Source: Bretschneidera sinensis (taxonomy: Eukaryota > Streptophyta > Magnoliopsida > Brassicales > Akaniaceae). From it: a stretch of 64,000 bases of DNA. Made by a program: the position numbers and the translations under genes. The stretch spans positions 34,753,456 to 34,817,455 of the forward strand of contig CM043700.1 of NCBI GenBank assembly GCA_023935145.1. The letters run 5' to 3'. Below are positions 11,864 through 59,596 of this stretch, piece after piece. How positions within the stretch are numbered: position 1 is the first letter of the stretch; each line of letters begins with the position of its first letter. Below the pieces are notes generated by a model. The model saw only the letters and a program-made list of their open reading frames with translations, made no database searches and had not been told where the DNA came from.

Positions 11864-12175
11864 GCTGGAAAAGTTGTATTATTGTCCCTTCGGTGGTGCC
11901 TTTATGTTGGTTTTTTGAAGGAAAGACTACTTCTGAATTCTATTTGCACTTGAGTTCATTATGGTAAACATTATATTTTTTTGTCCCTTCGGTGGTCCTT
12001 GTCCCTTTGTCATTTGAAGAAAGACTAATTCTGAATTCTAAATCAAATTGAATTCCATGCTAGCAAAGAGTCAAATGAATTTCATCCAGACAAACATCGT
12101 ATTGTTTTGTCCCTTCGGTGGTGCATTCCTGGTGGTTTTGAATTATTTATGGAAACATTCTATTCTTTTGGTCCC

Positions 12176-12382
12176 AAAGATATTTTAGAGGTTCATAAGG
12201 TCCATTTACAGGTCAATGCCATAAAGGACTATATGAAATCCTAACAACATCATGGCATGCTCAATTATCTCTTAACATAGCTATGTTAGGCTCTTTAACC
12301 ATTGTTGTAGCTCACCATATGTATTCCATGCCCTCTTTTCCATATCTAGCTACTGATTATGGTACATAACTGTCATTGTTCA
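12176..12382 (+). pseudogene. psaA: psaA fragment, copy 1
   Basis: Full span of the captured plastid segment. A missing A in GTTCATAAGGTCC shifts the frame after KDILEVHK. Confidence 0.85.
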
Positions 12383-13128
12383 TGTCTGTTGGTTTTTTGA
12401 AGAGAGACTGATTCTGAGTTCTAATTCTAATGGAATTCCATGTTGGAAAAGTTGTATTATTGTCCCTTCGGTTGTGCTTTTCTGTTGGTTTTTTGAAGGA
12501 AAGACTAATTCTGAATTCTAATTTGCACCTATATTCATTATGGTAAACATTATGTTTTTTTGTCCCTTTGGTGGTCATTGTCCCTTCGTCATTTGAAGAA
12601 AGACTAATTCTGAATTCTAAATTAAATTGAATTCCATGCTGGTAAAGATTCAAATAAATTTCATGCATATTGTTTTGTCCCTTCGGTGGTGCATTCCTGG
12701 TGGTTTTGAGTTATTTATGGGAAAAATTGCATTCTTTTGGTCCCTTCGATTGTGCATGTCCATTGGTTTTCTGACGAGAGGCTTATTCTAAATTCTAATT
12801 CTAATTGAATTTCATGCTGGAAAAGTTGTATTATTGTCCCTTTGGTGGTGCCTTTCTGTTGGTTTTTTGAAGGAAAGACTAATTCTGAATTCTATTTGCA
12901 CTTGAATTCATTATGGTAAACATTATGTTTTTTTGTCCCTTCGGTGGTCCTTGTCCCTTTGTCATTTGAAGAAAGACTAATTCTGAATTCTAAATCAAAT
13001 TGAATTCCATGCTGACAAAGATTCTAATGAATTTCATGTAGACAAACATCGTATTGTTTAGTCCCTTCGGTGGTGCGTTCTTGGTGGTTTTTAATTATTT
13101 ATGGAAAACATTGTATTCTTTTGGTCCC

Positions 13129-13184
13129 AAAGATATTTTAGAGGTTCATAAAGGTCCATTTACAGGTCAAGGCCATAAAGGACT
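13129..13184 (+). pseudogene. psaA: psaA fragment, copy 2 (interrupted)
   Basis: Only the first 56 bases are present, up to CATAAAGGACT. The Athila LTR begins at the next base. The rest of this copy does not reappear on the right side of the insertion. Confidence 0.8.
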
Positions 13185-13770
13185 TGATGAGAGTCATAAA
13201 ATGCATCTAAACAATACTTAATTGTTAGCATTTTAGGGTTGTAATCGCACTTTTATATGTTAATAACTCTAAAGTGATATTCATAAACCGTTGACTTAAT
13301 TCGATGCATTTTCAGGTGCTTTGCATCCAAAAGAGATGATAAAGCGATCCATGTTTAAAGCGCCAAAAGATCTCGCATGTCGGTTTTCGTATTTGTCCAA
13401 GGTTTAAACATGTCTAAACATGGTTCAAAGATGGTTCAAGTCTAAACCAAGGTTGGAGAAATAAAACACAATAAGTTAAAAGACTGCACACAAGTGTGTG
13501 CATCACTTTGGAGCAAGGTAAGGGTAGGCACACCACTTGGAAAGGAGTTTCACTAAATTGCCAGAATTTCCCGTGCAGATCAATCATCTTTTCAGATTAA
13601 ACTGTATTGATACAGGAAGAACCAGGAGATGAGCCATATATGTTTAGAAAGATTCGGAAGTCTATTTTCTGGAGAATTTTACGGTTCATAAAAAGGATTT
13701 TTCTAGAGAAAGTTATGGCAGTTTTAGTAGACACAGGTCAGGCCTCCAGATCAGCATCCACCTAGCGCCA

Positions 13771-13835
13771 CGCCCCTCACTTTCCAGCACTGCACCCTCA
13801 CTTTCCAGCACTGCACCCCTCACTTTCCAGCGCCC
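13771..13835 (+). repeat. 22-bp minisatellite in LTR
   Basis: Three tandem copies of a CTCACTTTCCAGCACTGCAC-like unit. The same block is kept in the second LTR at 19971-20035. Confidence 0.75.
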
Positions 13836-13908
13836 ACTCGTTCCAAGACCAAATTAGGGCTGCACAATGACATTTTCTGGACCAAAATGCCCCTAACTGC
13901 TTGTGCTC

Positions 13909-13916
13909 TATAAATA
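13909..13916 (+). promoter_or_regulatory. LTR TATA box
   Basis: TATAAATA, repeated in the second LTR at 20109-20116. It is the likely core promoter of the element. Confidence 0.5.
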
Positions 13917-14795
13917 CATCTTTAAGGAGTGTGCAGCCAGCATCATTAAGCTTGAAGGGGATCCAAGGGATCCAAATCCAGAATATTTCCAAGTCTCTTT
14001 AGGGCTGCAAATCAAGGGGAGAACATCCATATTGTTCATCCACCTTGAGCTCCATGGCCAACTAATCATCAAGTAAGGGAAAGGGATGAATCCTTAGGGA
14101 TTTGTTGTTCCTTACTTCCTGTTCTTGATTCATTTATATGGATTTATTGTTAAAACATTGTCTATGATTTACTCTTTGATTAAGTAAGAAGGATTTGAGT
14201 TCATGTGATAGCTGTTCTTTATATTCTTCTTCTTTTAGATTCTCTTAATCCGGTGATTGCATCCTTCTCCTCCACATAAGTCTAGTCAAGCTCTTCTTAT
14301 GTCAAGTTGTTTGGATGTAATTGATTTCGGTAGATTTATCTTATAGATCGGCCATTACTATGGTATCATTATTGCAATATATTGTTGTTTCTTGCTAATC
14401 TATAAGATAAATCATGTGTGCTTGAATTGAAATCAAAGAGTAATTTGTAGCAATTATATTAGAGTTATAAATGTGCTTGATTGAATATTTTCCGATTGCT
14501 TGTTTGGGATGTTAAATTTGCAATCGAGATAAAAACAATTGAATCAAGAGAGGACATAGGGAACGAACCTTGGGAGGATTCCCGGAACCTTGTTATTTCT
14601 CATTTATATTCTTCAATATATTCACACAACTCTTTTACACATTATTTCATTATCAAAACTCAAAATCTTTCGTTTAACTTTTATCGTTAGTATTAAAGTT
14701 TACACCTTCTTTGTAATTAACTTGTTTCCCTGTGGAATCGACACCCCAAAGTTGTACTAAAATAACTGTGTTATACTTTGGGCGTAATCAAATTT

Positions 14796-14813
14796 TGGTG
14801 CTGTTGCCGGGGA
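14796..14813 (+). promoter_or_regulatory. Primer binding site (tRNA-Asp type)
   Basis: TGGTGCTGTTGCCGGGGA lies 5 bp after the LTR end. It has two differences from the complement of the tRNA-Asp 3' end, TGGCGCCGTTGCCGGGGA. Confidence 0.8.
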
Positions 14814-15016
14814 AACACGCTTAAGTATAAGGAAGCTTGTCAACTTTGAGTGTGACGGTAAAAGAATTGTAAATATTTTTTTTTCAGCAGTTTGTAAATA
14901 CGGTAATATTGTTCCTTTACCTTTGTTTTGATTTTCTAATTTTCTTTTATTATTCTGTTTTATTTATATTATTTTCCTGTTTTATTTATTTTATTCCCCT
15001 CTAAATTAATTGGTGC
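14814..15016 (+). other. Leader before gag
   Basis: AT-rich untranslated leader between the primer site and the gag ATG, with T-rich runs. The same leader occurs after the second LTR (21017-21237). Confidence 0.6.
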
Positions 15017-16597
15017 ATGCTTAGACCGAGATATTCTCGAGGTAGATTCATTAGAGGACCCGAATTAGAGTTACTCTCTCCTTCCATGTCCGTTGGTGAA
15101 ACCTCGCCTAGATCAAACCATAGTGCACCTCCACACGAAAATTTAGAGGATTTTGTTAACATGGCCGATAACCCTAATGAGAATGTTGCTAGGATACTTA
15201 AAGACTACTTGCACCCTAGCCGAACGGCCACACCCTTTTGTATCATGTTCCCCCCTAATGCCCCACAACTTGAGTTTAAGCTAGGCATGATACAATTGCT
15301 ACCAACCTTCCATGGGTTTGAGAATGAAAACCCCTATGTCCACATTAGGGAATTTGAGGAAGTAGTAGCAACCTTTCAAGGTAGGGCTGAAATGGTAGAC
15401 ACTGTCAAACTTTGGTTTTTCCCTTTTTCACTTAAGGAAAAAGCCAAGACTTGGCTATACTCATTAAGGCCTAGGTCTATAGGTAGTTGGGATGAGATGA
15501 CCTGAGTTTTCTTCCAAAAACACTTCCCAACCCATAAGACCAACAACCTCAAGAGACAAATCTCAAACTTTGCACAAAAAGAGAGTGAAACCTTATATCA
15601 AGTTTGGGAACGTTTCAAAGACCTTTTAAATTCTTGTCCACACCATGGGTATGAGAGTTGGCGGGTAGTTAGCTACTTCTATAATGGACTCCTAAGTAGG
15701 GAGAGGCAATTCATAGAAATGATGTGTAATGGGGATTTTCTTCAAAAAGATCCCGATCAAGCCATAGATTTCCTAGATGACCTATCAGAAAAAGCCCACA
15801 CTTGGACAGGACCAAGTGTCATGGAAAGTACTAGGAGAAATCAACCTGCTGGAATCTACCAACTTAAGGAAGAGGACAGCCTTAAAGCCTGTTTAGAGGC
15901 CCTAACTAAGGAAATTGAAGTCTTAAGAACCAAGGATGCTAGAGCCCCCGAACAAGTTGCTATGGTAGAGTCCCGTGAGCCTTGTTTCATGTGTAATGGG
16001 GTAGATCATGTGCCTAGGGATTGTCCAACCTATTTTGAGATGAAAGGAGAGTGTAATGCTTTAGGTATACCCTCTAGCAAACCATACTCACCCTATTCTA
16101 ACACTTATAATCCCGGTTGGAAGAATCACCCAAATTTTAATTGGAGACCCGATACACAACCCCCTGCCCAATCTAGCACCCGTTGGAGATCCGATATACA
16201 ACCTCATCCCCACTCTAGTACCCAATGGCAACCGGAAGCAACCTCATCTAATGCACCACAACAATCTTTACCTTTGGAAGATACGTTTAAGTCATTTCTA
16301 CAGGTACATGCCAAGAGTGCGGAAGAACAAGGCAAGATAAATCAACGATTACTAGAAGAGCAAAAAGGGATCAAAGAGGAACAAAAGGAAATAAAAAGTC
16401 AACTCACCAAGTTGACTAGTTTCTTGACAGTCCAAGAACAAGGTCAGTTTCCTTCGCAGCCACAACAAAATCCAAGGGGACAACATATGGCACAAACCTC
16501 CGATCCAAAAAATCACAATATTAAAGAGGTTAATGCCATAATCACCCGCAGCAGTAAGAAAATTGATGGACCCACACTACCATCACATGATTCCTAA
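15017..16597 (+). pseudogene. Athila-type gag (one internal stop)
   Basis: The reading frame starts at the ATG at 15017 (MLRPRYSRGRF) and continues to 16597 with one TGA at 15503-15505, where relatives probably have Trp (DEMT-stop-VFFQKHFPTHKT). The retrotransposon gag domain spans about 15280-15720 (LGMIQLLPTFHGFENENPYV, then KLWFFPFSLKEKAKTWLYSL). The CCHC zinc knuckle CFMCNGVDHVPRDC lies near 15985, followed by YNPGWKNHPNFNW and a Q/K/E-rich probable coiled coil (EEQKGIKEEQKEIKSQLTKL). Gag would form the particle that packages element RNA. With one stop in 527 codons it is nearly intact, much better kept than the other retroelement genes here. Confidence 0.85.
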
Positions 16598-16661
16598 TAC
16601 CGTGAACAACAAGGATAAAGCCCCCAAGGAATAAGAGGCCCATGATGATTATTCTCCACCA

Positions 16662-17309
16662 GTGCCTTTCCCTCAAGCTCTCCTTAAACCTAAGGAGAGA
16701 AATTCAGCACTAAAAGGCGAGATTCTTGAACAACTTCAGCATGTTAAGATTAACCTCCCTCTTCTTCATGTTATAAAACAGATTCCTAATTATGCTAAAG
16801 TCATCAAGGATCTATGCACACTCAAGAGGAGGCACAATATTAAGAAGACTGCATTCTTAACGAAGCAAGCAAGTGCGGTAATTGATAGCATGACACCGCC
16901 CAAATATAAAGATCCGGGCTGTCCAACAATGGCTTGCCAAATTGGAAACAAATCTTGTGGCCAAGCATTGCTAGATTTGGGAGCTAGTGTGAACCTCATA
17001 CCATACTCCATGTACTTACAACTCGGTTTAGGTGAGATTAGACCAACCTCCGTGGTACTTCAACTAGCGGATAGATCGGTAAGAAAACCAAGAGGTATTG
17101 TAGAAGATGTTTTGTTGCAAATTGATAATTTCTATTATCCTGTTGACTCCTTGGTTTTAGATACTGTTTCTATGGTAAATACGGAGTCCAAAATTCCTTT
17201 GATACTTGGAAGACCATTCCTTGCCACCACCAATGCTCTTATTAATTGTAGGAATGGCCTAATGACATTATCATTTGGAAATAGTACTTTAGAGGTAAAT
17301 GTTTTCTGA
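16662..17309 (+). pseudogene. Athila-type aspartic protease
   Basis: Open frame of 215 aa beginning MPFPQALLKPKERNS. The gag-protease linker LPLLHVIKQIPNYAKVIKDL is followed by the protease site QALLDLGASVNLIPYSMYLQ and the second motif ILGRPFLATTNALINCRNGL. It is colinear with the minus-strand frame at 10218-11279. A frame change between 16597 and 16662 separates it from gag. After 17309 further Athila-like sequence continues in broken frames (QPFEEDECFDTYMIDKL, then QPCFEELLERS) to about 17640. No RT motif follows. Confidence 0.8.
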
Positions 17310-17639
17310 ATCTCAAGGCAACCATTTGAAGAGGATGAGTGTTTCGACACTTATATGATTGATAAGCTTAATTCGGAGGATGAGAACATTGAAGATAATT
17401 CTAACTCTTTGGAATTCCCTCCTAATAATTTCGAGTTCAATGATTCTTTAATTTATCCCCATGTCGTTAACGTTATTGATATTTGTGATAAGTCACAAGG
17501 ATTTATTAAGAAATCTTAGCAACCATGCTTTGAGGAGTTGCTTGAGAGAAGTCACATGGATGCGGGAATCAAATACCCTACTGCTGATAGTAAATGGGCA
17601 ACACCAAGAAAACTTGAGCCTTATGTGGTGGACTTTAAG

Positions 17640-17800
17640 TATTCCTTGCCAAAATATTAGTACTGAGGCCATTGAGTTTGGAGCCTCATTTTCAGCACCA
17701 TAATGAGGCCAGTAGTGAGAGTGGTGCAGTGTCTGGCTGAAGACATAAAATTTAGCGCTCATGGGAGGCACCCCATAGCATATCCTTTTATTTTTATTGT
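17640..17800 (+). other. Pol deletion junction
   Basis: Protease-downstream sequence runs within about 100 bp into GCTGAAGACATAAAATTTAG and CGCTCATGGGAGGCACCCCA, a motif that marks the end of pol in Athila-type elements. About 4 kb that would hold RT, RNase H, integrase and the env-like ORF is therefore missing. A closely similar end motif sits in the nested element at about 51690-51730 on the minus strand. Confidence 0.65.
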
Positions 17801-19376
17801 TTTTCATAATTCTTTTTCTTGTTTATTATTAGTATTTTATTGTTTTCCAGTTTTACTTTCGTATTTCTTTTTCATGGACAAATATACGAAACAGTTCAAA
17901 TGGTGGTGCACGATTCTCAGCTTCTGTGCACTTTTGGCTACAAAGGGAGTTTCCTTATCTTATGCTTCCATATTGAGGACAATGCCTATTTTAAGTTGGG
18001 GGTGGAGGAAACATATTCTTGTTTCTCGTGTTTTTCATTGAACTGCTTGGTGTCATTTTACCTTTTTGTTTGTTTTTAGCATGCTTTGTGTTAGTCTTGG
18101 AGTCAATTCATATGTCGATGATATGAGCCTAATTGAGATAGCATATAGTGGTTAGAAGAAGTTAAATCTTGCTTCGCTTTGAGAATAAATTAAGTGTCAA
18201 TTTTTCTTTGGTTTGAGACTCTGGTTTGTGGTAAGATTGCATGGTTAGTCTAAAGCATTTGGAGAAGTTTTATGTGCGATTGTTTTGTGAATACTTTTGC
18301 GGTCTCAACAAGCTCTAGAACTTATTTGATAATCACTTGAGGTGAAAATCATAGAATGCACACTACTTAGGATATGATGTAGGCCATTTTTGGGCGGTTT
18401 TAAGCCTTTTTAAACTTGCCCTTGTTATATTTATCACTAGTCACCTATTTTAGCCTTTTTTTCTTGAAAAGAAAAATTGAGCCTTGTTTTCTTTTCGATA
18501 AACCATTTACTTACCTTTATAAGCCTAAAAATATTTTATCCTTACCTTTCTTTTAAAAGAACTTAGTTATACACATGTTGTGAGAAGCACTTAAAAGGAG
18601 TAAGGGTGAAAATATGAGAAAATATTACTACCATACCCCAAGTACATTAAAAGAGATAAGTTGGGGGTTGTGGAAAAGAAAAGAAAAGAATGAAAGAGGA
18701 GGTGAATGGTCTTATGCCAAAATTAAAAAAAAAAAGAGAAAAAATGAATTATGGCAAAGAGAAAAGAAAAAAAATTGGTGATTTGTTGAAAGAAATGCTC
18801 AAAAAATGGTTGAAAGAGTTTGATGTTGAAGTAAGGTTATCTTGTGCTTAAAGTGGTTGTGTTTAAATTAAGAGACTTAGTTCTTTTATTTGTTTAAACT
18901 TTCTCGTTATTTCTTGACCTTTACCCTAGCCTAACGTTACAAGCTTATTAAAGACCTATTGATCCGATGTAGTGTGATTTTTCTACATAGTGGAGAGTGA
19001 TTTGATAAGTGAGCTTATGGAGCTTGATTTGTGATTGATGTCACGCAATTTAATATGTTTTTAGAGGCCAAGACTTATATTCATGCTATGTTGTGCATAA
19101 AATCATCCGGGTGTTCGGACTAATGTATTGTGGTAAGATGGATATTAAGAGTCGATAACGATTTTAAGGTTGACATTTGGGTTATTCTTGGGACTTGAGT
19201 GATATTTAATGATTCTATTTGTTGTATGTTATGCATGATTTTTGAGACAAAGATTTTTGAATCACTTTTGGTTAACACCAGCATTGCTGTATTTTGCTTT
19301 GATTTATAAATAAAGAATTCATTTCATGTCTTTCGCTTGAATTGCTAGGGACTAGCAATAAGCTAGTTGGGGGTTA
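17801..19376 (+). other. Athila 3' non-coding tail and PPT
   Basis: Homologous in reverse to 4119-5660. It includes an internal PPT-like TTTTAAGTTGGGGGTGG at 17989-18005, an A/G-rich tract at about 18650-18790, and the polypurine tract AGCTAGTTGGGGGTTA at 19361-19376, directly before the LTR. Confidence 0.7.
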
Positions 19377-21572: not shown

Positions 21573-21780
21573 AAAGATATTTTAGAGGTTCATAAAGGTC
21601 CATTTACAAGTCAAGGCCATAAAAGACTATATGAAATCCTAACAACATCATGGCATGCTCAATTATCTCTTAACCTACCTATGTTAGGCTTTTTAACCAT
21701 TGTTGTAGCTCACCATATGTATGCCATGCCTTCTTATCCATAGCTAGCTACTGATTATGGTACAAAACTGTCATTGTTCA
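21573..21780 (+). pseudogene. psaA: psaA fragment, copy 3
   Basis: Full span. The frame is open until a TAG in place of TAT of YPYL (near 21743). Confidence 0.85.
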
Positions 21781-22328
21781 TGTCTATTGGTTTTCTGAAG
21801 AGAGACTTATTCTGAGTTCTAATTCTATTTGAATTTCGTGTTGGAAAAGTTGTATTATTGTCCCTTCGGTTGTGCTTTTTTAATGGTTTTTTGAAGGAAA
21901 AACTAATTTTGAATTATAATTCAAATTGAATTCCATGCTGGTAAAGATTCAAATGAATTTCATGCATATTGTTTTGTCCCTTCGGTGGTACATTCCTGGT
22001 GGTTTTGAATTATATATGGGAAACATTGTATTCTTTTGGTTCCTTTGATTGTGCATGTCTGTTGGCTTTCTGACGAGAGATGTATTCTAAATTCTAATTG
22101 AATTTCATGCTGAAAAAGTTCTATTATTGTCCCTTCGGTGGTGCTTTTCTGTTGGTTTTTTGAAGGAAATACTACTTCTGAATTCTATTTGCACTTGAAT
22201 TCATTATGGTAAACATTATGTTTTTTTGTCCCTTCGGTGGTCCTTGTCCCTTTGTCATTTGAAAAAAGACTAATTCTGAATTCTAAATCAAATTGAATTC
22301 CATGTTAGCAAAGATTTAAATGAATTTC

Positions 22329-22531
22329 ACAACATCCATTTAAGTTGAAGAAGTAGGAGGTAATCGATCTCTTTTTATCCCGGTCTGCTCCATAGTCCGA
22401 ATCTGCAAACCCTTCAAGGCAGATTGCATTACCCCTCTTCTCATACACCATCCCTACTTCTGGGCTTCCCTTCAAATACCTTAGCAACCACTTCATCCCA
22501 ATCCAATGCTCCTTTCCGGGATTACTCATAA
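22329..22531 (-). mobile_element. Copia RNase H fragment inside satellite
   Basis: 203 bp matching 25569-25771 of the nearby copia element with about three differences. It encodes the minus-strand stretch [20 protein letters not shown] to FNLNGCC. Its right edge coincides with the RT-deletion breakpoint of that copia element. It replaces part of a satellite unit, with no target duplication visible. Confidence 0.85.
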
Positions 22532-22555
22532 ACCATTGTTGTACCTCACCATATG
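22531..22555 (+). pseudogene. psaA: psaA fragment, copy 4 (remnant)
   Basis: Only about 25 bp, AACCATTGTTGTACCTCACC and ATATG, between the copia fragment and satellite GAAAAGTAGTATT. The right junction is identical to that of copy 8 at 29802. Confidence 0.7.
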
Positions 22556-23238: not shown

Positions 23239-23323
23239 AAAGATATTTTAGAGGTTCATAAAGGTCTATTTACAGATCAAGGCCATAAAGGACTATATGA
23301 AATCCTAATAACATCATGGCATG
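23239..23323 (+). pseudogene. psaA: psaA fragment, copy 5 (truncated)
   Basis: First 85 bp only. At CATCATGGCATG it jumps to satellite TAGACAAACAT, consistent with recombination at a shared CATG. Confidence 0.8.
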
Positions 23324-23412: not shown

Positions 23413-23619
23413 AAAGATATTTTAGAGTTTTATAAAGGTCCATTCACAGGTCAAGGCCATAAAGGACTATATGAAATCCTAACTACATCATGGCATGCTC
23501 AATATCTCTTAACCTAGCTATGTTAGGCTCTTTAACCATTGTTGTAGCTCACCATATGTATTTTATGCCCTCTTATCCATATCTAGCTACTGATTATGGT
23601 ACAGAGCTGTCATTCTTCG
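23413..23619 (+). pseudogene. psaA: psaA fragment, copy 6
   Basis: Full span with a one-base loss in GCTCAATATCTC that breaks the frame. Its start reads GAGTTTTAT instead of GAGGTTCAT. Confidence 0.85.
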
Positions 23620-29424: not shown

Positions 29425-29587
29425 AAAGATATTTTAGAGGTTCATAAAAGTCTATTTACAGATCAAGGTTATAAAGGACTATATGAAATCCTAACAACAT
29501 CATGGCATGCTCAATTATCTCTTAGCCTACCTATGTTAGGCTCTTTAACCATTGTTGTACCTCACCATATGTATTCCACGCCCTCTT
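29425..29587 (+). pseudogene. psaA: psaA fragment, copy 7 (truncated)
   Basis: Reaches TCCACGCCCTCTT and then enters satellite GTCCCTTCGG at a shared CTT. Carries CCTCAC (Pro) in place of GCTCAC (Ala) before HHMY. Confidence 0.83.
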
Positions 29588-29655
29588 GTCCCTTCGGTGG
29601 TGCATTCCTGGTGGTTTTAAATTATTTATGGAAAACATTGTATTGTTTTGGTCCC

Positions 29656-29802
29656 AAAGATATTTTAGAGGTTCATAAAGGTCTGTTTACAGATCAAGGC
29701 CGTAAAGGACTATATGAAATCCTAACAACATCATGGCATGCTCAATTATCTCTTAACCTACCTATGTTAGGCTCTTTAACCATTGTTGTACCTCACCATA
29801 TG
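29656..29802 (+). pseudogene. psaA: psaA fragment, copy 8 (truncated)
   Basis: Ends at CTCACCATATG and passes into GAAAAGTAGTATT. Shares the CCTCAC variant with copies 4, 7, 9 and 13. Confidence 0.83.
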
Positions 29803-30485: not shown

Positions 30486-30693
30486 AAAGATATTTTAGAG
30501 GTTCATAAAGGTCTATTTACAGATCAAGGCCATAAAGGACTATATGAAATCCTAACAGCATCATGGCATGCTCAGTTATCTCTTAACCTACCTATGTTAG
30601 GCTCTTTAACCATTGTTGTACCTCACCATATGTATTCCATGCCCTCTTATCCATATCTAATTACTGATTATGGTACAGAACTGTCATTGTTCA
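30486..30693 (+). pseudogene. psaA: psaA fragment, copy 9
   Basis: Full span with an open frame throughout, [19 protein letters not shown]. The CCTCAC variant is present. Confidence 0.88.
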
Positions 30694-31864: not shown

Positions 31865-32072
31865 AAAGATATTTTAGAGGTTCATAAAGGTCCATTTACA
31901 TGTCAAGGCCATAAAGGACTATATGTAATCCTAACAACATTATGGCATGCTCAATTATCTCTTTACCTAGCTATGTTAGGCTCTTTAACCATTGTTGTAG
32001 CTCACCATATATGTTCTATGCTCCCTTATCCATATCTAGCTACTGATTATGACACGGAACTGTCATTGTTCA
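31865..32072 (+). pseudogene. psaA: psaA fragment, copy 10
   Basis: Full span, subtype with CATATATGTTCTATGCTCCC ([11 protein letters not shown]). Open frame. GTCAAGGCC is preceded by ACAT instead of ACAG. Confidence 0.87.
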
Positions 32073-33189: not shown

Positions 33190-33395
33190 GAAGATATTTT
33201 AGTGGTTCATAAAGGACCATTTACAAGTTAATGCCATAAAGGACTATATGAAATCTTAACAACATCATGGCATGCTCAATTATTTCTTAACTTAGCTATG
33301 TTAGACTCTTTAACCATTGTTGTAGCTCACCATATGTATTCCATGCCCCCTATCCAAATCTAGCTACTGATTATGGTACAGAACTGTTATTGTTA
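33190..33395 (+). pseudogene. psaA: psaA fragment, copy 11
   Basis: Subtype with AGTGGTTCAT, GTTAATGCC, a one-base loss in GCCCCCTATCC, and a TTGTTAATGTC end. The frame is broken. Copies 14 and 17 share these marks. Confidence 0.86.
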
Positions 33396-34141
33396 ATGTC
33401 TGTTGGTTTTTTGAAGTGAGACTTATTATGAGTTCTAATTCTAATTGAATTCCATGCTGGAAAAGTTGTATTATTGTCCCTTCGGTGGAGCATTTCTATT
33501 GGTTTTTTTAAGGAAAGATTAATTATGAATTCTATTTGCACTTAAATTCATTATGGTAGACATTATGTTTTTTTGTCCCTTCGGTGGTCCTTGTCCTTTT
33601 TTCATTTTAAGAAAGACTAATTCTGAATTCTAAATCAAATTGAATTCAATGCTAGTAAAGATTCAAATGAATTTCATGCATATTGTTTTGTCCCTTCGGT
33701 GGTGCATTCTTGGTGGTTTTTAATTATTTATGGGAAAAATTGTATTCTTTTGGTCCCTTCGTTTGTGTATGTCCATTGGTTTTCTGACGAGAGACTTATT
33801 TTAAATTCTAATTCTAATTGAATTCCATGCTGGAAAGGTTGAATTATTGTTCCTACGGTGGTGCATTTATGTTGTTTTTTTGAAGGAAAGACTAATTCTG
33901 AATTCTATTTGCACTTGAATTCATTATGGTAAACATTATGTTTTTTTGTCCCTTCGGTGGTCCTTGTCCCTTTGTCATTTGAAGAAAGACTAATTCTGAA
34001 TTCTAAATCAAATTGAATTCCATGCTAGCAAAGATTCAATTGAATTTCATGCAGATAAACATCATATTATTTTATCGCTTCGGTGGTGAATTCCTGGTGG
34101 TTTTGAATTATTTATGGGAAACATTGTATTCTTTCGGTCCC

Positions 34142-34349
34142 AAAGATAATTTAGAGGTTCATAAAGGTCTATTTACAGGTCAAGGCCATAAAGGACTATA
34201 TGAAATCCTAAAAACTTCATGGCATGCTCAATTATCTCTTTATCTAGCTATGTTAGGCTCTTTAACCTTTGTTGTAGCTCACCATATATGTTCCATGCTC
34301 CCTTATCCATATCTAGCTACTGATTATTATACAGAACTGTCATTGTTCA
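34142..34349 (+). pseudogene. psaA: psaA fragment, copy 12
   Basis: Full span, [20 protein letters not shown] subtype. Open within a 123-codon frame (34013-34384). Confidence 0.87.
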
Positions 34350-36216: not shown

Positions 36217-36424
36217 AAAGATATTTTAGAGGTTCATAAAGGTCTATTTATAGATCAAGGCCATAAAGGACTATATGAAATCCTAACAACATCATGGCAT
36301 GCTCAATTATCTCTTAACCAACCTATGTTAGGCTCTTTAACTATTGTTGTACCTCACCATATGTATTCCATGCCCTCTTATCCATATCTAGCTACTGATT
36401 ATGGTACAGAACTGTCATTGTTCA
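36217..36424 (+). pseudogene. psaA: psaA fragment, copy 13
   Basis: Full span with an open 123-codon frame (36088-36459). CCTCAC variant. Confidence 0.88.
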
Positions 36425-38661: not shown

Positions 38662-38866
38662 AAAGATATTTAGTGGTTCATAAAGGTCCATTTACAGGTT
38701 AATGCCATAAAGGACTATATGAAATCTTAACAACATCATGCAATGCTCAATTATCTCTTAACCTAACTATGTTAGACTCTTTAACCATTGTTGTAGCTCA
38801 CCATATGTATTCCATGCCCCCTATCCAAATCTATTTACTGATTATGGTTCAAAACTGTCATTGTTA
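38662..38866 (+). pseudogene. psaA: psaA fragment, copy 14
   Basis: Same derived subtype as copies 11 and 17, with additional loss of one T in ATATTTAGTGG. Confidence 0.86.
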
Positions 38867-40359
38867 ATGTCTGTTGGTTTTTTAAAGTGAGACTTATTAT
38901 GAATTCTAATTCTAGTTGAATTCCATGTTGGAAAAGTTGTATTATTGTCCCTTCGGTTGTGTTTTTCTGTTGGTTTTTTGAAGGAAAGACTAATTCTGAA
39001 TTCTAATTTGCACTTGAATTCATTATGGTAAACATTATGTTTTTTTGTCCCTTCGGTGGTCATTGTCCCTTTGTTATCTGAAGAATGACTAATTCTGAAT
39101 TCCGAATCAAATTAAATTCCATGCTGGTAAGGATTTAAATGAATTTCATGCATATTGTTTTGTCCCTTTGGTGGTGCATTCCTGGTGTTGTTGAATTTTT
39201 AATGGGAAAAATTGTATTCTTTTGGTCCCTTCGATTGTGCAAGTCCGCTGGTTTTCTGATGAGAGACTTATTCTAAATTCTAATTCTAATTGAATTTCAT
39301 GCTGAAAAGTTGTATTATTGTCCCTTTGGTTGTGCTTTTCTGTTGGTTTTTTGAAGGAAATACTAATTCTAAATTCTAATTTGCACTTGAATTCATTATG
39401 GTAAACATTATGTTTTTTTGTCCCTTCGGTGGTCATTGTCCCTTTGTCATTTGAAGAAAAACTAATTCTTAATTCTAAATCAAATTGAATTCCGTGCTGG
39501 TAAAGATTCAAATGAATTTCATACATATTGTTTTGTCCCTTCGGTGGTGCATTCCTGGTGGTTTTGAATTATTTATGGGAAAAATATTATTCTTTTGGTC
39601 CCTTCGATTGTGCATGTCCGTTGGTTTTCTAACGAGAGGCTTATTCTAAATTCTAATTCTAATTGAATTCCATTGTGGAAAAGTTGTATTATTGTCCCTC
39701 CGATTGTGCTTTTCTGTTGGTTTTTTGAAGGAAAGACTAATTTTGAATTCTAATTTGCACTTGAATTCATTATGGTAAACATTATGCTTTTTTGTCCCTT
39801 CGGTGGTCATTGTCGCTTTGTCATTTGAAGAAAGACTAATTCTGAATTCTAAATCAAATTGATTTCTATGCTAGCAAAGATTTAAATGAATTTCATGTAT
39901 ATTGTTTTGTCCCTTAGGTGGTGCATTCCTGGTGGTTTTGAATTATTTATTTGAAAAATTGTATTCTTTTGGTCCCTTACATTGTGCATGTCCGTAGTTT
40001 TTCTGACGAGAGACTTATTTAAAATTCTAATTCTAATTGAATTCCATGCTGGAAAAGTTGTATTATTGTCCCTTTGGGGGTGCCTTTTGGTTGGTTCTTT
40101 GAAGGAAAGACTAATTCTGAATTCTATTTGCACTTGAATTCATTATGGTAAACATTATGTTTTTTTTTCCCTTCGGTGGTCATTGTCCCTTTGTCATTTG
40201 AAGAAAGACTAATTTTGAATTCTAAATCAAATTGGTTTCCATGCTGGCAAAGATTCAAATAAAATTCATGCAGACAAACATCGTATTGTTTTGTCCCTTC
40301 GGTTGTGCATTCCTGGTGGTTTTGAATTATTTATAGAAACATTGTATTCTTTTGGTCCC

Positions 40360-40567
40360 AAAGATATTTTAGAGGTTCATAAAAGTCTATTTACAGGTCA
40401 AGGCCATAAAGGACTAAATGAAATCCTAAAAACTTCATGGCATGCTCAATTATCTCTTTACCTAGCTATGTTAGGCTCTTTAACCTTTGTTGTAGCTCAC
40501 CATATATGTTCCATGCTCTCTTATCCATATCTAGGTACTGATTATTATACAGAACTGTCATTGTTCA
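40360..40567 (+). pseudogene. psaA: psaA fragment, copy 15
   Basis: Full span, open frame. Shares CTAAAAACTTCATGG and CTTTGTTGTAGC with copy 12. Confidence 0.87.
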
Positions 40568-42437: not shown

Positions 42438-42645
42438 AAAGATATTTTAGAGGTTCATAAAGGTCCATTTACAGGTCAAGGCCATAAAGGACTATATGAA
42501 ATCCTAAAAACATCATGGCATGCTCAATTATCTCCTTACCTAGCTATGTTAGGCTCTTTAACCATTGTTGTAGCTCACCATATATGTTCCATGCTCCCTT
42601 ATCCATATCTAGCTACTGATTACGATACAGAACTGTTATTGTTCA
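42438..42645 (+). pseudogene. psaA: psaA fragment, copy 16
   Basis: Full span, 208 bp, open frame; used here to measure the segment. [11 protein letters not shown] subtype. Confidence 0.88.
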
Positions 42646-43389: not shown

Positions 43390-43595
43390 AAAGATATTTT
43401 AGTTGTTCATAAGGGTCCATTTACAGGTTAATGCTATAAAGGACTATATGAAATCTTAACAGCATCATGGCATGCTCAATTAACCCTTAACCTAGCTATG
43501 TTAGACTCTTTAACCATTGTTGTAGCTCACCATATGTATTCCATGCCCCCTATCCAAATCTAGCTACTAATTATGGTACAGAACTGTTATTGTTA
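43390..43595 (+). pseudogene. psaA: psaA fragment, copy 17
   Basis: Third member of the subtype of copies 11 and 14. Frame broken at GCCCCCTATCC. Confidence 0.86.
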
Positions 43596-44319
43596 ATGTC
43601 TCTTGGTTTTTTGAAGTGAGACTTATTATGAGTTCTAATTCTAACTGAATTCCGTGCTGAAAAAGTTGTATTACTGTCCCTTCGGTAGAGCATTTCTGTT
43701 GGTTTTTTGAAGGAAAGACTAATTCTGAATTCTATTTGCACTTGAATTCATTATGGTAGACATTATGTTTTTTTGTCCCTTCGGTGGTCCTTGTCCTTTT
43801 GTCATTTGAAGAAAGACTAATTATGAATTCTAAATCAAATTGAATTCAATGCTAGTAAAGATTCAAATGAATTTCATGCATTGCATTCTTGGTGGTTTTT
43901 AATTATTTATGGGAAAAATTGTATTCTTTTGGTCCCTTCGATTGTGTATGTCCATTGGTTTTCTGATGAGAGACTTATTTTAAATTCTAATTCTAATTGA
44001 ATTCCATGCTGGAAAGGTGTATTATTGTTCCTACGGTGGTGCATTTCTGTTGGTTTTTTGAAGGAAAAACTAATTTTGAATTCTATTTGCACTTGAATTC
44101 ATTATGGTAAACATTATGTTTTTTTGTCCCTTCGGTGGTCCTTGTCCCTTTGTCATTTGAAGACAGAATAATTCTAAATTCTAAATCAAATTGAATTCCA
44201 TGCTGGCAAAGATTCAAATGAATTTCATGCAGACAAACATCGTATTATTTTATCCCTTCGGTGGTGAATTCCTGGTAGTTTTGAATTATTTATGGGAAAC
44301 ATTGTATTCTTTTGTTCCC

Positions 44320-44527
44320 AAAGATATTTTAGAGGTTCATAAAGGTCCATTTACAAGTCAAGGCCATAAAGTACAATATGAAATCCTAACGACATCATGG
44401 CATGCTCAATTATCTCTTAACTTAGCTATGTTAGGCTCTTTAACAATTGTTGTAGCTCACCTTATATGTTCCATACTCCCTTATCCATATCTAGCTACTG
44501 ATTATGGTACAGAACTGTCATTGTTCA
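44320..44527 (+). pseudogene. psaA: psaA fragment, copy 18
   Basis: Full span and open. GTACAATATGAAATC replaces GGACTATATGAAATC. Confidence 0.86.
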
Positions 44528-45273: not shown

Positions 45274-45480
45274 AAAGATATTTTAGAGGTTCATAAAGGT
45301 CCATTTACAGGTCAAGGCCATTAAGGACTATATGAAATCATAACAACATCATGGCATGCTCAATTATCTCTTAACCTAGCTATGCTAGGGTCTTTAAACA
45401 TTGTTGTAGCTCAACATTTATGTTCCATGCCCCCTTATCCGTATCTAGCTTCTGATTATGGTACAGAACTGTCATTGTTC
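45274..45480 (+). pseudogene. psaA: psaA fragment, copy 19
   Basis: Full span. A TAA at CATTAAGGACT breaks the frame. CAACATTTATGTTCC variant. Confidence 0.85.
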
Positions 45481-45853
45481 TTGTCTGTTGGTTTTCTAAA
45501 TAGAGACTTATTCTGAATTCTAATTCTATTTGACTTTCGAGTTAGAAAAGTTGTATTTTTGTCCCTTCGGTTGTGGTTTTCTGTTGATTTTTTGAAGGAA
45601 AGATTAATTCTGAATTCTAATTTGCACTTGAATTCATTATGGTAAACATTATGTTTTTTTGTCCCTTCGGTGGTCCTTGTCCCTTTGTCATTTGAAGAAA
45701 GGCTAATTCTGAATTCTAAATCAAATTGAATTTCATGCTGACAAAGATTCAAATGAATTTCATGCTGACAAACATTGTATTGTTTTGTCCCTTCGGTGGT
45801 GCATTACTAATGGTTTTGAATTATTTATGGAAACATTGTATTCTTTTGGTCCC

Positions 45854-46049
45854 AAAGATATTTTAGTGGTTCATAAAGGTCTATTTCCAGGTCAAGGCCA
45901 TAAAGGACTATATGAAATCCTAACAACATCATGGCATGCTCAATTATCTCTAAACCTAGCTATGTTAGGCTTTTTAACCATTGTTGTAGCTCACCATATA
46001 TATTCCATGCCCTCTTATCCATATCTAACTACTGATTATGGTTGTTTAT
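45854..46049 (+). pseudogene. psaA: psaA fragment, copy 20
   Basis: The last 20 or so bases are lost: GATTATGG is followed by TTGTTTATCTCTGTTGG. Confidence 0.83.
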
Positions 46050-46794: not shown

Positions 46795-47002
46795 AAAGAT
46801 ATTTTAGAGGTTCATAAATGTCCCTTTACAGGTCAAGGCCATAAAGGACTATATGATATCCTAACAACATCATGGCATGCTCAATTATCTCTTAACCTAG
46901 CTATGTTAGGCTCTTTAACCATTGTTGTAGCTCACCATATATGTTCCATGATCCCTTATCCATATCTAGCTACTGATTATGGTACAGAACTATCCTTGTT
47001 CA
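46795..47002 (+). pseudogene. psaA: psaA fragment, copy 21
   Basis: Full span, open; the frame runs on to 47166, 146 codons in all. Confidence 0.86.
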
Positions 47003-47747: not shown

Positions 47748-47956
47748 AAAGATATTTTAGAGGTTCATAAAGGTCCATTTACAGGTCAAGGGCATCAAGG
47801 ACTATATGAAATCATAACAACATCATGGCATGCTCAATTATCTCTTAACCTAGCTATGTTAGGGTCTTTAACCATTGTTGTAGCTCACCATATATGTTCC
47901 ATGCCCCCCTTATCCATATCTAGGTACTGATTATGGTACAGAACTGTCGTTGTTCA
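47748..47956 (+). pseudogene. psaA: psaA fragment, copy 22
   Basis: Full span with one extra C in GCCCCCCTTATCC that shifts the frame near the end. Confidence 0.85.
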
Positions 47957-52945: not shown

Positions 52946-52951
52946 AAAACT

Positions 52952-54270
52952 TGTTGAACGAAAATATACCTAAATAAATAGGCAAATAATCGCACTCGTT
53001 TTACTTGTAAGTGCACAAGGTCAACTTAGTAGTATAGTGTGCGAAAGCAAGATCATCTCCACAGGGATTGGTGAATTTCATTTTAGAATTATATTCACAA
53101 TGTAATAGAAATAATAAAAGAGTTGATTTTGATAAAGATAAAATAATAAGGATAAAGGCGTAGGGACTTGATATCCACCACTAATTATGCTACCACAACA
53201 AAACAGTATGCCAATGCTTTACTCATGTCATGAATACCTAATGTTTGTCAACCTAAGGTCATGGTATCTACTCCTTAAGCTATTGATCTCCCTAAGCAAC
53301 GAGTTAGGTGTGGTATCTACTCTAACTCTTTTCTCTCTTAAAGGATTCAACATGGTGTATGCTGAGTTGTTCCTTAAGAGAGCATAAGATCTGTGGAAAT
53401 CGATAACCACACGGGACCTAGGGCATGGTATCTACTCCCAGTTTCCCATGTTGATTAACCCAAGAATCCGATGTAGATATCTTTTGTTATTAATGTCAGA
53501 CCCAGGACTCAGTCATCTAAATTGATCTAACTAACAAGTCCATACCACATGCACATATTAATCAGACATATACATATGAGGAATTTAAATAAAAGCAGGT
53601 ATTAATCAAGTTAAGCAACACAACATAAATATCGCAAAGGCGCCAATACTAAATTTATTGGGTAAACATAATTAGGGCTTCAACCAAGCCCTTACTAAGA
53701 ATTTAATTATACATAATAAAATAAAATAAAGAAGAAACCCGAGAGAAGAGTCGTCAATTCTCCTCCACAGTTTTCTTCTCCAAGCTAAAAGCGAAAGCTA
53801 AAAGAATAGATTAATTGATGTCTAAGAAGTGATTATTTATGTGTGCTTTACAGGTGTATTTATAGGGCTTGAGTAGTCCTAGAAGGCTTATGAGTTCCTA
53901 AACTTTCCTAAAACACAAAACTCATTTTTTTCCAAAATAGGGTTATTTCCAAAATAGAGTTCTGCAGTTTACTGTTCACCCCCGTACATATGCGCTCGAT
54001 CGTATTGCTATGCTCGATCCTTCATGTGTGCGAACGATCGCATGTGCGCTCGATCGCATGCAGTAGTACGATCGATCGCACTTTGACCAGAAGCTGCTCC
54101 AGGATTTCCAGGCTTCTTCCCTTAAGTGCCAAAACTGCTTCCTTTTTCTCCAGGACCTATAAAAACATGTGAAACACACAAAATGAAGTAAAACAGACTA
54201 AAATGTATAGACAAAGAGCTTAACACATGTAAATTAAGGGGCTTAAATATGAATATTTAAGCACTTATGA
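52952..54270 (-). mobile_element. 5' LTR of nested element
   Basis: TGTTGAACGAAAATATACC to GCACTTATGA on the plus strand; the last bases should be CA and appear mutated to GA. TATAAATA on the minus strand at 53857-53864. CGATCG-rich motif cluster at about 53990-54085. Confidence 0.82.
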
Positions 54271-54275
54271 TTAGA

Positions 54276-54577
54276 TACCATGCTGAATCCCTTAAGAAAG
54301 AGAAGAGTTATAGTAGATACCATGCCCTTAGGTTGACAACCATTAGGTATTCATAGCACGAGTAGAGCATCGGTATACTGTTTTGTTATGATAGCATAAT
54401 TAGTGGTGGATATCAAGTCCCGACGCCTTTATCTTTATTATTTCAAACTCAATATTTATTTCTCTTGTTTTTTATTTTATTATTGCGAAACTAATTCTAA
54501 AGTGAAATCTACCAATCCCTGTGGAGATGATCTTGCATTCGCACACTATGCTACTATTGACGTTGTGCACTTGCAAA
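54276..54577 (+). mobile_element. Host LTR, right part (truncated)
   Basis: Continues the LTR from 49088 in plus orientation (TACCATGCTGAATCCC onward). It stops at GTGCACTTGCAA, about 60 bp short of the expected LTR end, and passes into satellite AAAGTTGTATTAATG. The LTR therefore lacks its 3' end. Confidence 0.75.
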
Positions 54578-54881
54578 AGTTGTATTAATGTCCATTCGGA
54601 GGTGCCTTTCTGTTGGTTTTTTGAAGGAAAGACTAATTCTGAATTCTATTTGCACATGTATTCATTATGGTAAACATTATGTTTTTTTGTCCCTTCGGTG
54701 GTCCTTGTCCCTTTTTCATTTGAAGAAAAACTAATTCTAAATTCTAAATCAAATTGAATTCCATGCTGGCAAAGATTCAAATGAATTTCATGCAGGCAAA
54801 CATCGTATTTTTTTGTCCCTTCAGTGGTGCATTACTGGTGGTTTTGAATTATTTATGGAAATATTGTATTCTTTTGGTCCC

Positions 54882-55079
54882 AAAGATATTTTAAAGGTCC
54901 ATTTACAGGTCAAGGCCATAAAGGACTATATGAAATCCTAACAACATCATGGCATGCTCAATTATCTCTTAACCTAGCTAATTTAGGCTCTTTAACCATT
55001 GTTGTAGCTCACCATATGTATTCATGCCCCCTTATCCATACCTAGCTACTGATTATGGTATAGAATTGTCATTGTTCAT
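54882..55079 (+). pseudogene. psaA: psaA fragment, copy 23
   Basis: Internal loss of about 10 bp (GAGGTTCATA) after ATATTTTA. Otherwise full span. Confidence 0.84.
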
Positions 55080-56209
55080 GTCTGTTGGTTTTCTGAAGAG
55101 AGACTTATTCTGAGTTCTAATTCTAATTGAATTCCATGCTAGAAAAGTTGTATTATTGTCCCTTCGGTTGTGCTTTTCTGTTGGTTTTTTGAAGGAAAGA
55201 CTAGTTCCGAATTCTAATTTGCGCTTAAATTCATTGTGGTAAACATTATGTTTGTTTGTCCCTTCGGTGGTCCTTGTCCCTTTGTCATTTGAAGAAAGAC
55301 TAATTTTGGATTCTAAATCAAATTGAATTCTATACTGGTAAAGATTCAAATGAATTTCATGCATATTATTTTGTCCCTTCGGTGGTGCGTTCCTAGTGGT
55401 TTTGAATTATTTATGGGAAACATTGTATTCTTTTAGTCCTTTCGATTGTGAATGTCCGTTGGTTTTCTGATGAGAGACTTATTCTAAATTATAATTCTAA
55501 TTGAATTCCATGCTGGAAAAATTGTATTGTTTTCCCTTCGGTGGCGCCTTTCTGTTGGTTTTCTAAAGGAAACACTAATTCTGAATTCTATTTGCACTTG
55601 AATTCATTATGATAAACTTTATGTTTTTTTGTCCCTTGAGTGGTCGGTGTCCCTTTGTCATTTTATGAAAGACTAATTCTGAATTCTAAATCAAATTGAA
55701 TTCCACGCTGGTAAACATTCAAATGAATTTCATGCAGACAAACATCATACTGTTTTGCCCCTTTTGTAGTGCATTCCTGGTGGTTTTGAATTATTTATGA
55801 GAAACATTGTATTCTTTTGGTCTCTTCGATTATGCATGTCCGTTGGTTTTCTGACGAGCGACTTATTCTAAATTTTAATTCTAATTGAATTCCACGTTGG
55901 AAAAGTTGTGTTGTTATCCCTTTGGTGGTGCCTTTCTGTTGGTTTTTTGAAGGAAAGAGTAATTCTGAATTCTATTTGCACTTGAATTCATTATGGTAAA
56001 CATTATGTTTTTTGGTCCCTTCGGTGGTCCTTGTCCCTTTGTCCTTTGAAGAAAGACTAATTCTGAATTCTAAATCAAATTGAATTCCATGCTGGCAAAG
56101 ATTCAAATGAATTTCATACAGACAAACATTGTATTGTTTTGTCCCTTCGATGGTGCATTCAATGGTGGTTTTGAAGTATTTATGGGGAACATAGTATTCT
56201 TTTGGACCA

Positions 56210-56417
56210 AAAGATATTTTAGTGGTTCATAAAGGTCCATTTATAGGTCAAGGCCATAAAATACTATATGAAAACCTAACAACATCATGGCATGCTCAAT
56301 TATCTCTTAATCTAGCTATGTTAGGCTCTTTAACCATTGTTGTAGCTCACCATATGTATTCCATGCCCCCTTATCCATATCTAGCTATTGATTATGGTAC
56401 TGAGCTGTCATTGTTCA
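56210..56417 (+). pseudogene. psaA: psaA fragment, copy 24
   Basis: Full span, open frame of 76 codons from 56222. [10 protein letters not shown] and TATAGG variants are shared with copies 25 and 26. Confidence 0.86.
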
Positions 56418-56789
56418 TGTCTGTTGGTTTTTTTAAGAGAGACTTATTCTGAGTTCTAACTCTAATTGAATTCTATGCTGGAAAAGTTAAATTATTGTCC
56501 CTTCAGTGGTGCCTTTCTGTTGGTTTTTTGAAGGAAAGACTAATTCTGTATTCTATTTGCACTTGAATTCATTTTGGTAAACATTATGGTTTTTTGTCCG
56601 TTCGGTGGTCCTTATCCCTTTGCCAATTGGAGAAAGACTAATTCAGAATTCTAAATCAAATTGAATTTCATGCTGGCAAAGATTCAAATGATTTTCATGT
56701 GGGCAAACATCATATTGTTTTATCCCTTCGGTGGTGCATTCCTGGTGGATTTGAATTATTTATGGGAAACATTGTATTCTTTTGGTCCC

Positions 56790-56997
56790 AAAGATATTTT
56801 AGAGGTTCATAGAGGTCCATTGATAGGTCAAGGCCATAAAGGACTATATGAAAACCTAACAACACCATGGCATGCTCAGTTATCTCTTAATCTAGCTATG
56901 TCAGGCTCTTTAACCATTGTTGTAGCTCACCATATGTATTTCATGCCCTCCTGTCTATATCTAGCTATCGATTGTGGTACAGAATTGTCATTGTTCA
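56790..56997 (+). pseudogene. psaA: psaA fragment, copy 25
   Basis: Full span and open: [19 protein letters not shown]. Confidence 0.86.
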
Positions 56998-57751
56998 TGT
57001 CTGTTGGTTTTTTGAAGTGAGACTTATTATGAATTCTAATTCTAATTGAATTCAATGCTGGAAAAGTTATATTATTGTCCCTTCAGTGGTGCCTTTCCGT
57101 TCGTTTTTTGAAGGAAAGACTAATTCTGAATTCTATTTTTTGAATTCATTATGGTAAACATTATGTTTTTTTGTCCCTTTGGTGGTCCTTGTCCCTTTGT
57201 CATTTGAGGAAGGACTAATTCTGAATTCTAAGTCAAATTTAATTCCATGCTGGCAAAGAATCAAATGAATTTCATGCAGACAAACATCGTGTTGTTTTGT
57301 CCCTTCGGTGGTGCATTCTTGGTGGTTTTGAATTATTTTTGGGAAACATTGTATTCTTTTGGTCCCTTCGATTGTGCATGTCCGTTGGTTTTCTGACGAG
57401 TAATTTATTTTAAATTTTAATTCTAATTGAATTCCATGATGGAAAAGTTGTATTATTGTCCCTTCGGTGGTGCCTTTCTGTTGGTTTTTTGAAGGAAAGA
57501 TTAATTCTGAATTCTATTTGCACTTGAATTCATTATGGTAAACATTATGTTTTTCTGTCACTTCGGTGGTCCTTGTCCCTTTGTCTTTTGAAGAAAGACT
57601 AATTTTGAATTCTAAATCAAATTGAATTACATGCTGGCAAAGATTCAAATGAATTTCATGCAGACAAACATTGTATTATTTTGTCCCTTCGGTGGTGCAT
57701 TCAATGGTGGTTTTGAATTATTTGTGGGAAACATTGTATTCTTTTGGTTCC

Positions 57752-57959
57752 AAAGATATTTTAGAGGTTCATAAAGGTCCATTTATAGGTCAAGGCCATA
57801 AAAGACTATATGAAAACCTAACAACATCATGGCAGGCTCAATTATCTCTTAATCTAGCTATGTTAGGCTCTTTAACCATTGTTGTAGCTCACCATATGTA
57901 TTCCATGCTCCCTTATCCATATCTAGTTATTGATTATGGTACAGAATTGTCATTGTTCA
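57752..57959 (+). pseudogene. psaA: psaA fragment, copy 26
   Basis: Full span and open: [20 protein letters not shown]. Last copy before the right edge of the array. Confidence 0.86.
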
Positions 57960-59596
57960 TGTCTGTTGGTTTTTCGAAGAGAGACTTATTCTGAGTTCTA
58001 ATTCTAATTGAATTCCATGCTGGAAAAGTTATATTATTGTCCCTTTGGTGGTGCCTTTCCGTTCGTTTTTTGAAGGAAAGACTAATTCTGAATTCTATTT
58101 GCACTTGAATTCATTATGGTAAATAGTATTTTTTTTGTCCCTTCGGTGGTCCTTCTCCCTTTGTCATTTGAGGAAAGACTAATTCTGAATTCTAAATCAA
58201 ATTTAATTTCATGCTGGCAAAGATTCAAATGAATTTCATGCAGACAAACATCGTATTGTTTTGTCCCTTCGGTGGTGCATTCATGGTGGTTTTGAATTAT
58301 TTATAGGAAACATTGTATTCTTTTGGTCTCTTCGATTGTGCATGTCTGTCGGTTTTCTGACGAGATACTTATTATAAATTTTAATTCTAATTGAATTCCA
58401 TGATGGAAAAATTGTATTATTTTCCCTTCGGTGGTGCCTTTCTGTTTGTTTTTTGAAGGAAAGACTAATTTTGAATTCTATTTGCACTTGAATTCATTAT
58501 GGTAAACATTATGTTTGTTTGTCCCTTCGGTGGTCCTTGTCCTTTTGTCATTTGAAGAAAGACTAATTCTGAATTCTAAATCAAATTTAATTCCATGCTG
58601 GCAAAGATTCAAATGAATTTCATGCAGACAAACATCGTATTGTTTTGTCCCTTCGGTGGTGCATTTTCGGTGGTTTTGAATTATTTATGGGAAACATTGT
58701 ATTCTTTTGGTCTCTTCGATTGTGCATGTCTGTTGATTTTCTGACGAGTGACTTATTATAAATTTTAATTCTAATTAAATTCCATGATGGAAAAGTTGTA
58801 TTATTTTCCCTTCGGTGGTGCCTTTCTGTTTGTTTTTTGAAGGAAAAACTAATTCTGAATTCTACTTGCACTTGAATTTATTATGGTAAACATTATATTT
58901 TTTTGTCCCTTCGATGGTCCTTGTCCCTTTGTCATTTGAAGAAAGACTAATTCTGAATTCCATGCTGGAAAAGTTGTATTATTGTCCCTTCGGTTGTGCT
59001 TTTATATTGGTTTTTTGAAGGAAAGACTAATTCCGAATTCTAATTTGCACTTGGATTCAATATGGTAAACTTTATGTTTTTTTGTCCCTTTGGTGGTCCT
59101 TGCCCCTTTGTCATTCGAAGAAAAACTAATTTTGAATTCTAAATCAAATTGAATTTCACGCTAGTAAAGATTCAGATGAATTTCATGCATATTGTTTTGT
59201 CCCTTTGGTGGTGCATTCCTGGTGGTTTTGAATTATTTATGGGAAACATTGTTTTCTTTTGGTCCCTTCAATTATGCATGTCTGTTGGTTTTCTAGCAAT
59301 AGACTTATTCTAAATTCTAATTCTAATTGAATTCCACGATGGAAAAGTTGTATTATTGTCCCTTCGGTGGTGCCTTTCTGTTGGTTTTTTAAAAGAAAGA
59401 CTAATTCTGAATTCTATTTGCACTTGAATTCATTATGGTAAACATTATGTTTTTTAGTCCCTTCGGTGGTCCTTGCCCTTTTGTCATTTGAAGAATGACT
59501 AATTCTGAATTCTAAATCAAATTGAAATCTATGCTGGTAAAGATTCAAATGAATTTCATGCATATTGTTTTGTCCCTTCGGTGGTGCATTCCTGGT

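Follow-up and report, generated by a model that had tools for sequence, protein, structure and literature searches.

A plastid psaA fragment probably captured once by a nuclear satellite unit and co-amplified with it in Bretschneidera sinensis

We analysed a 64,000-bp stretch of Bretschneidera sinensis DNA (contig CM043700.1, positions 34,753,456 to 34,817,455; hereafter the window), in which a satellite array carries many copies of a short piece of the plastid photosystem I gene psaA. It is very likely that a satellite unit captured this piece once, probably through end joining, and that the dead fragment was then passively co-amplified with the surrounding repeat. The window has the look of plant nuclear DNA, the array lying among long terminal repeat (LTR) retrotransposons:

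11864..59596, + strand: satellite array with units of about 374 bp (blastn and Tandem Repeats Finder, TRF; 64 unit matches of at least 150 bp)

Like other satellite DNA, the array consists of a single diverged unit repeated head to tail over a long distance, with 374 bp as the commonest spacing (13 of 63). As read in unit 35163, the unit is itself made of degenerate sub-repeats that are spaced 63-115 bp apart and each start with GTCCCTT. A preliminary description of this DNA had reported a tandem array with inserts. The array is present, but it is discontinuous, being broken by foreign blocks at approximately 13185-21404, 24267-29329 and 48219-54576, and the insert-bearing units are interspersed with plain ones.

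The consensus of the insert forms a single open frame of 69 codons. Compared with PDB chains, it corresponded to residues 320-388 of the best photosystem I PsaA chain (E = 2.4e-41) and was identical to it at 66 of 69 residues; the three differences were Val for Ala, Ser for Pro, and Glu for Gln. Pfam assigned the peptide to PsaA_PsaB (PF00223, E = 8.4e-30). With E-values far past chance, the insert peptide is PsaA, as the preliminary description had stated, and its remark that only about 69 codons are present without flanking plastid DNA also held; both joints lead straight into satellite. The insert is plastid-derived at the protein level and is embedded in a satellite with LTR retrotransposons, that is, in nuclear DNA, as expected of nuclear plastid DNA (NUPT). 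Going by their entry codes, we take the best-scoring PDB chains to be those of land plants, with green algae and cyanobacteria scoring lower. When one psaA copy was searched by blastn, the psaA of a Prochlorococcus phage (two records of one phage) showed 72.1% DNA identity over 66% of the copy, and no match was obtained among plasmid records. Exact psaA-type DNA patterns gave 0 loci in viral contigs, and their sole match in genome contigs, in Caldanaerobacter (L001), was taken as chance. The PsaA peptide matched one locus in the viral contigs (L002, 87% identical), which played no part in the analysis.

Using a single psaA copy as blastn query against the whole window, we found 26 psaA-derived stretches, all on the plus strand and all confined to the satellite array. 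This agrees with the roughly 26 places sharing one segment of about 207 bp that had been counted before. Nineteen copies were near full length, defined as at least 200 of the 208 columns of the 208-bp core being covered, and seven were partial (BLAST starts at 13134, 22525, 23244, 29430, 29661, 45859 and 54878). The coordinates are as follows:

12176..12382, +: psaA copy, near full length
13129..13184, +: 5' part of a psaA copy, interrupted by an LTR retrotransposon
21573..21780, +: psaA copy, near full length
22525..22555, +: psaA remnant with a 31-bp BLAST match, adjoining a copia fragment
23239..23323, +: psaA copy, truncated
23413..23619, +: psaA copy, near full length
29425..29591, +: psaA copy, truncated at 3' end
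29656..29802, +: psaA copy, truncated at 3' end
30486..30693, +: psaA copy, near full length
31865..32072, +: psaA copy, near full length
33190..33396, +: psaA copy, near full length
34142..34349, +: psaA copy, near full length
36217..36424, +: psaA copy, near full length
38662..38867, +: psaA copy, near full length
40360..40567, +: psaA copy, near full length
42438..42645, +: psaA copy, near full length
43390..43596, +: psaA copy, near full length
44320..44527, +: psaA copy, near full length
45274..45481, +: psaA copy, near full length
45854..46048, +: psaA copy, deletion near 3' end
46795..47002, +: psaA copy, near full length
47748..47956, +: psaA copy, near full length, one inserted base
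54882..55078, +: psaA copy, 10-bp deletion near 5' end
56210..56417, +: psaA copy, near full length
56790..56997, +: psaA copy, near full length
57752..57959, +: psaA copy, near full length

The copies share both of their joints with the satellite. The 5' joint was found at one satellite position in all 25 copies that retain it, reading exactly TTTTGGTCCC in 18 and a variant of it in 7. The 3' joint likewise occupied one position in 21 of 21 copies retaining that end, with TTGTTCA exact in 15 and base-changed in 6, as judged by eye; among the latter, the copy with BLAST start 45859 has a deletion directly before the joint. The common start and return of the segment described earlier were therefore borne out, and differing junctions were not found within the window. 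Plain units carry TTCGATTGTGCA-like sequence at the insertion site, again as first described. This plain sequence, GTCCCTTCGATTGTGCATGTCCGTTGGTTTT, aligns with another sub-repeat of the same satellite unit, GTCCCTTCGGTTGTGCTTTTCTGTTGGTTTT, the two sub-repeats being 74% identical over 96 columns. Hence the plain form came first, and the psaA piece replaced about 10-12 bp of it. At the 3' joint, where psaA CATTGTTCA stands against satellite GATTGTGCATGTC, the microhomology proposed earlier proved real but short, consisting of an exact CA or of eight bases with one mismatch (ATTGTNCA). Such a short overlap would be compatible with end joining by microhomology.

The copies also share codons that differ from those of plastid psaA. 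At the Val codon, 23 of the 24 readable copies have GTT, so that the earlier statement that almost all copies have Val for Ala stands; the remaining copy has TTT, and the non-plastid T at the second base is common to all 24. At the Glu codon, 20 copies cover the site, with GAA in 15, GAG in 2, AAA in 2 and TAA in 1. Most copies thus show the reported change from Gln to Glu, and no Gln codon remains.

To place the insert-bearing units among the others, a unit tree was built after the insert had been cut out and 15 junction columns had been removed. It included 54 of 58 units; units 21845, 31132, 58791 and 59343, which are short or rearranged, were left out. All 19 insert units fell on one side of a single branch (support 99/92), and this branch was present in 100% of 200 bootstrap trees, while shuffled labels needed 15.9 changes on average. 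The plain units nearest to them, 32511/37236/37990/41005 and 57062/58024/58407, joined them in a group of 26 (support 87/82). All but one of these seven measure 381-384 bp (the exception, 32511, has 371 bp), and one further 384-bp unit, 55517, was placed elsewhere. Judging from this placement, the nearest plain units may be descendants of the empty-site unit. In addition, all 19 insert units have A at a satellite position shortly 3' of the insert, as against none of the 37 plain units with data (Fisher test with 36 plain units entered, p = 3.6e-15).

Equal divergence is expected of an insert and a host unit that have evolved together since the last common insert-bearing unit. Consistent with this, the mean pairwise divergence was 9.2% for the insert (19 copies, 171 pairs), 9.0% for the 19 host units and 9.1% for 35 plain units. 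Taken together, the common joints, the non-plastid codons, the one-sided position in a tree made without the insert and the equal divergence point to one capture followed by co-amplification, as the preliminary description had proposed.

The spread of the insert units is less regular than that description implied in speaking of a higher-order unit. Repeated multi-unit blocks of insert and plain units were found; among those listed above 2.5 kb, identity was approximately 88-92% and length reached at least 3.8 kb. Between 29804 and 48021, 14 of 41 consecutive units bear the insert. Adjoining insert units were rarer than chance there (1 against 4.4 expected, P = 0.016) and the alternation insert-plain-insert was marginally above chance (6 against 3.0, P = 0.052); both tests apply to this 41-unit block. 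The block 54575-58791, which lies outside them, has 9 units, 4 with the insert, and one adjoining insert pair. A pair of about 953 bp, made of a 580-bp insert unit and a 373-bp plain unit, recurs, and successive insert distances were 930-954 bp in 7 of 24 cases, with otherwise irregular spacing. This pair is a favoured but non-strict period: recurrence and rare adjacency speak for a higher-order unit, irregular spacing and marginal alternation against it.

Together these results suggest the following course of events. In a satellite unit of about 374-384 bp, some 10-12 bp at one site would have been replaced by a psaA piece of about 208 bp, most likely during repair of a double-strand break by end joining, aided by short microhomology on the 3' side, as the joints indicate. 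The resulting unit of about 580 bp would then have multiplied together with plain units; the repeated blocks are observed, and the pathway probably involved unequal exchange, block duplication and gene conversion. At least one retrotransposon arrived later, inside a psaA copy.

In favour of this course, distances between inserts track those between their 3' flanks (Mantel test, r = 0.50, p = 0.0003) and weakly those between their 5' flanks (r = 0.28, p = 0.037). Several points weigh against so simple a history. The two satellite flanks do not track each other (r = 0.13, p = 0.21), from which it follows that exchange or conversion has reshuffled the units. Recombination between units has thus been heavy, which weakens a tree-like reading, and the alternation of insert and plain units is marginal. 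The linked bases downstream of the insert resemble the ancestral state of other sub-repeats, so the A marker alone is no proof of shared descent. That the Val and Glu codons arose after capture would follow from PsaA proteins in three PDB alignments and not from plastid DNA of the host. Finally, the end-joining step is deduced from the joints themselves, and microhomology was judged at the 3' side.

Among other explanations, the psaA piece could have reached the nucleus by way of the mitochondrial genome, first acquiring the Val and Glu changes there and then entering as nuclear mitochondrial DNA. Transfer of plastid DNA to plant mitochondria is documented in the accessible part of one report (PMC7145815), and the shared changes are non-synonymous, as for an already silent copy. 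However, the joints run straight into satellite on both sides, and the direct route needs one step fewer; we therefore regard this detour as unlikely. That a retrotransposon or Helitron carried the piece into the array is more doubtful still. LTR elements do occur in and around the array, and the proliferation of NUPTs in papaya is tied to neighbouring Ty3-gypsy elements in what is accessible of PMC7037861. Here, in contrast, satellite adjoins the captured piece at both joints with no element end beside it, although no search was aimed at Helitrons, and psaA matches in the window are confined to the array.

Many separate plastid insertions at one satellite motif are conceivable in that the motif, and hence the target, recurs, but the common joints at both ends, the non-plastid codons in every readable copy (24 at the Val and 20 at the Glu codon) and the single tree branch make this most improbable. 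Equally little can be said for plastid reads stitched into a satellite contig, hard as such arrays are to assemble, because the 19 full copies differ by 2.9-14.5% and yet share joints and non-plastid states, and because a retrotransposon cuts one psaA copy.

A single capture with later co-amplification also fits the decay of the insert. Substitutions from the consensus were spread evenly over codon positions 1, 2 and 3 (78/73/58, p = 0.21), and in-frame stops occur in 6 of the 19 full copies and indels of one or two bases in 6 of 19. These give no sign of a protein being maintained, and we rejected a working PsaA-derived product: the insert no longer codes for anything and is drifting in the same way as the surrounding satellite. 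The commonest of the 209 changes were C>T (50) and G>A (31), as expected of methylated repeat DNA. Given that an LTR element cuts the psaA copy at 13129-13184, the capture predates the insertion of that element.

A second foreign piece lies in the array:

22325..22531, +: copia fragment of 207 bp, matching 25565-25771 of a complete copia element at 203 of 207 bases

It is nearly equal in length to the psaA piece. Satellite flanks it on the left; on the right it meets a psaA remnant. Read by eye, the joints share 1-2 bases. The fragment may be a second break-repair filler; alternatively, a copia-bearing block may have been duplicated and then reduced by deletion to this remnant. In favour of capture, other units provide the closest matches to its left flank (95.4% at 11869), and the complete element's own left flank was not among the best 14 matches to it. 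Against capture, the left edge of the fragment falls at unit position 217, 2 bp from position 219, where the complete element sits, and the right flank of the fragment is 97.3% identical to sequence right of the complete element. We tentatively raise the possibility, which we consider less likely than not, that the satellite repeatedly takes up foreign fragments of about 200 bp by break repair, first psaA and later copia, with at least one hybrid unit becoming a normal spreading member. If so, capture and co-amplification would be a regular source of new satellite variants.

NUPTs, their proliferation and chloroplast DNA near tandem repeats are already known; what is added here is co-amplification inside a satellite unit. 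As in NUPTs generally, a plastid-derived piece lies in nuclear DNA, lacks long homology at the readable joints and decays as a pseudogene. Unlike them, it is one internal gene piece of 208 bp present 26 times (19 near full length) in one repeat family. The accessible part of PMC7037861 describes a papaya plastid piece with a ribosomal protein gene in 23 nuclear copies and NUPT clusters in asparagus; there too, plastid DNA multiplied in the nucleus after insertion, but with neighbouring retrotransposons or near-identical plastid clusters, whereas here satellite units multiplied and the joints are mapped. In Brachycome dichromosomatica, the B-chromosome repeat Bd49 has chloroplast-like flanking sequence (PMC6210368, in its accessible text), similarly linking chloroplast-like DNA to a tandem repeat; there, some clones show it linked to the repeat or interspersed with it, while psaA lies inside the unit and is co-amplified. 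The Allium centromere repeats AfCen1K and AcCen1K, studied by read pairs and fluorescence in situ hybridization, likewise associate plastid DNA and retrotransposons with satellite DNA; their chloroplast insertions, many judged longer than 10 kb, are not demonstrated as part of the repeat unit in the portion of PMC7644871 at hand, in contrast to the psaA piece. Accumulation of NUPTs on Y chromosomes has also been published (PMC5704215, accessible part). In a literature search, with subscription papers mostly outside its coverage, none of the titles and abstract openings listed described a plastid gene piece co-amplified within a satellite unit.

The array thus documents at sequence level how organelle DNA can become structural repeat DNA: within 48 kb, filled and plain units occur next to each other, together with the joints and the later decay. 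The Allium paper, in the part accessible, calls the role of chloroplast insertions in new centromeric tandem repeats an intriguing question (PMC7644871). In the present array, which may or may not be centromeric, an inserted plastid piece has multiplied as part of a satellite unit. The satellite-psaA joints could serve as probes for spread across chromosomes and relatives.

As for the remainder of the window, Pfam domains comprised gag, reverse transcriptase, integrase and copia-type gag. We presume the non-copia elements to be Ty3/gypsy, partly from domain order and motifs. The foreign block 13185-21404 has two 2-kb direct copies, 95.2% alike, at 13185-15199 and 19377-21404, each apparently an LTR with the start of the internal region; to its right, the array does not continue at the matching base. 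The block 24267-29329 is a copia element with LTRs 98.2% alike. The top-scoring match to its polyprotein was 59% identical, and among the best 120 of 2456 proteins (E of 1e-50 or better) the named ones were nearly all from various plants. A plain satellite unit had no blastn match among plasmid records. The left edge of the array (11600-11864) adjoins what we take, from a motif read by eye, to be minus-strand gag-like sequence. Sequence resembling a gag start also seems, by eye, to be present right of that edge. The satellite array may lie inside a broken element. An inverted repeat of 165 bp (59596-59760 / 60481-60645, 93.9%) stands directly at the right edge of the array, and another tandem repeat with a period of about 88 bp starts at the right end of the window (63750-64000; TRF).

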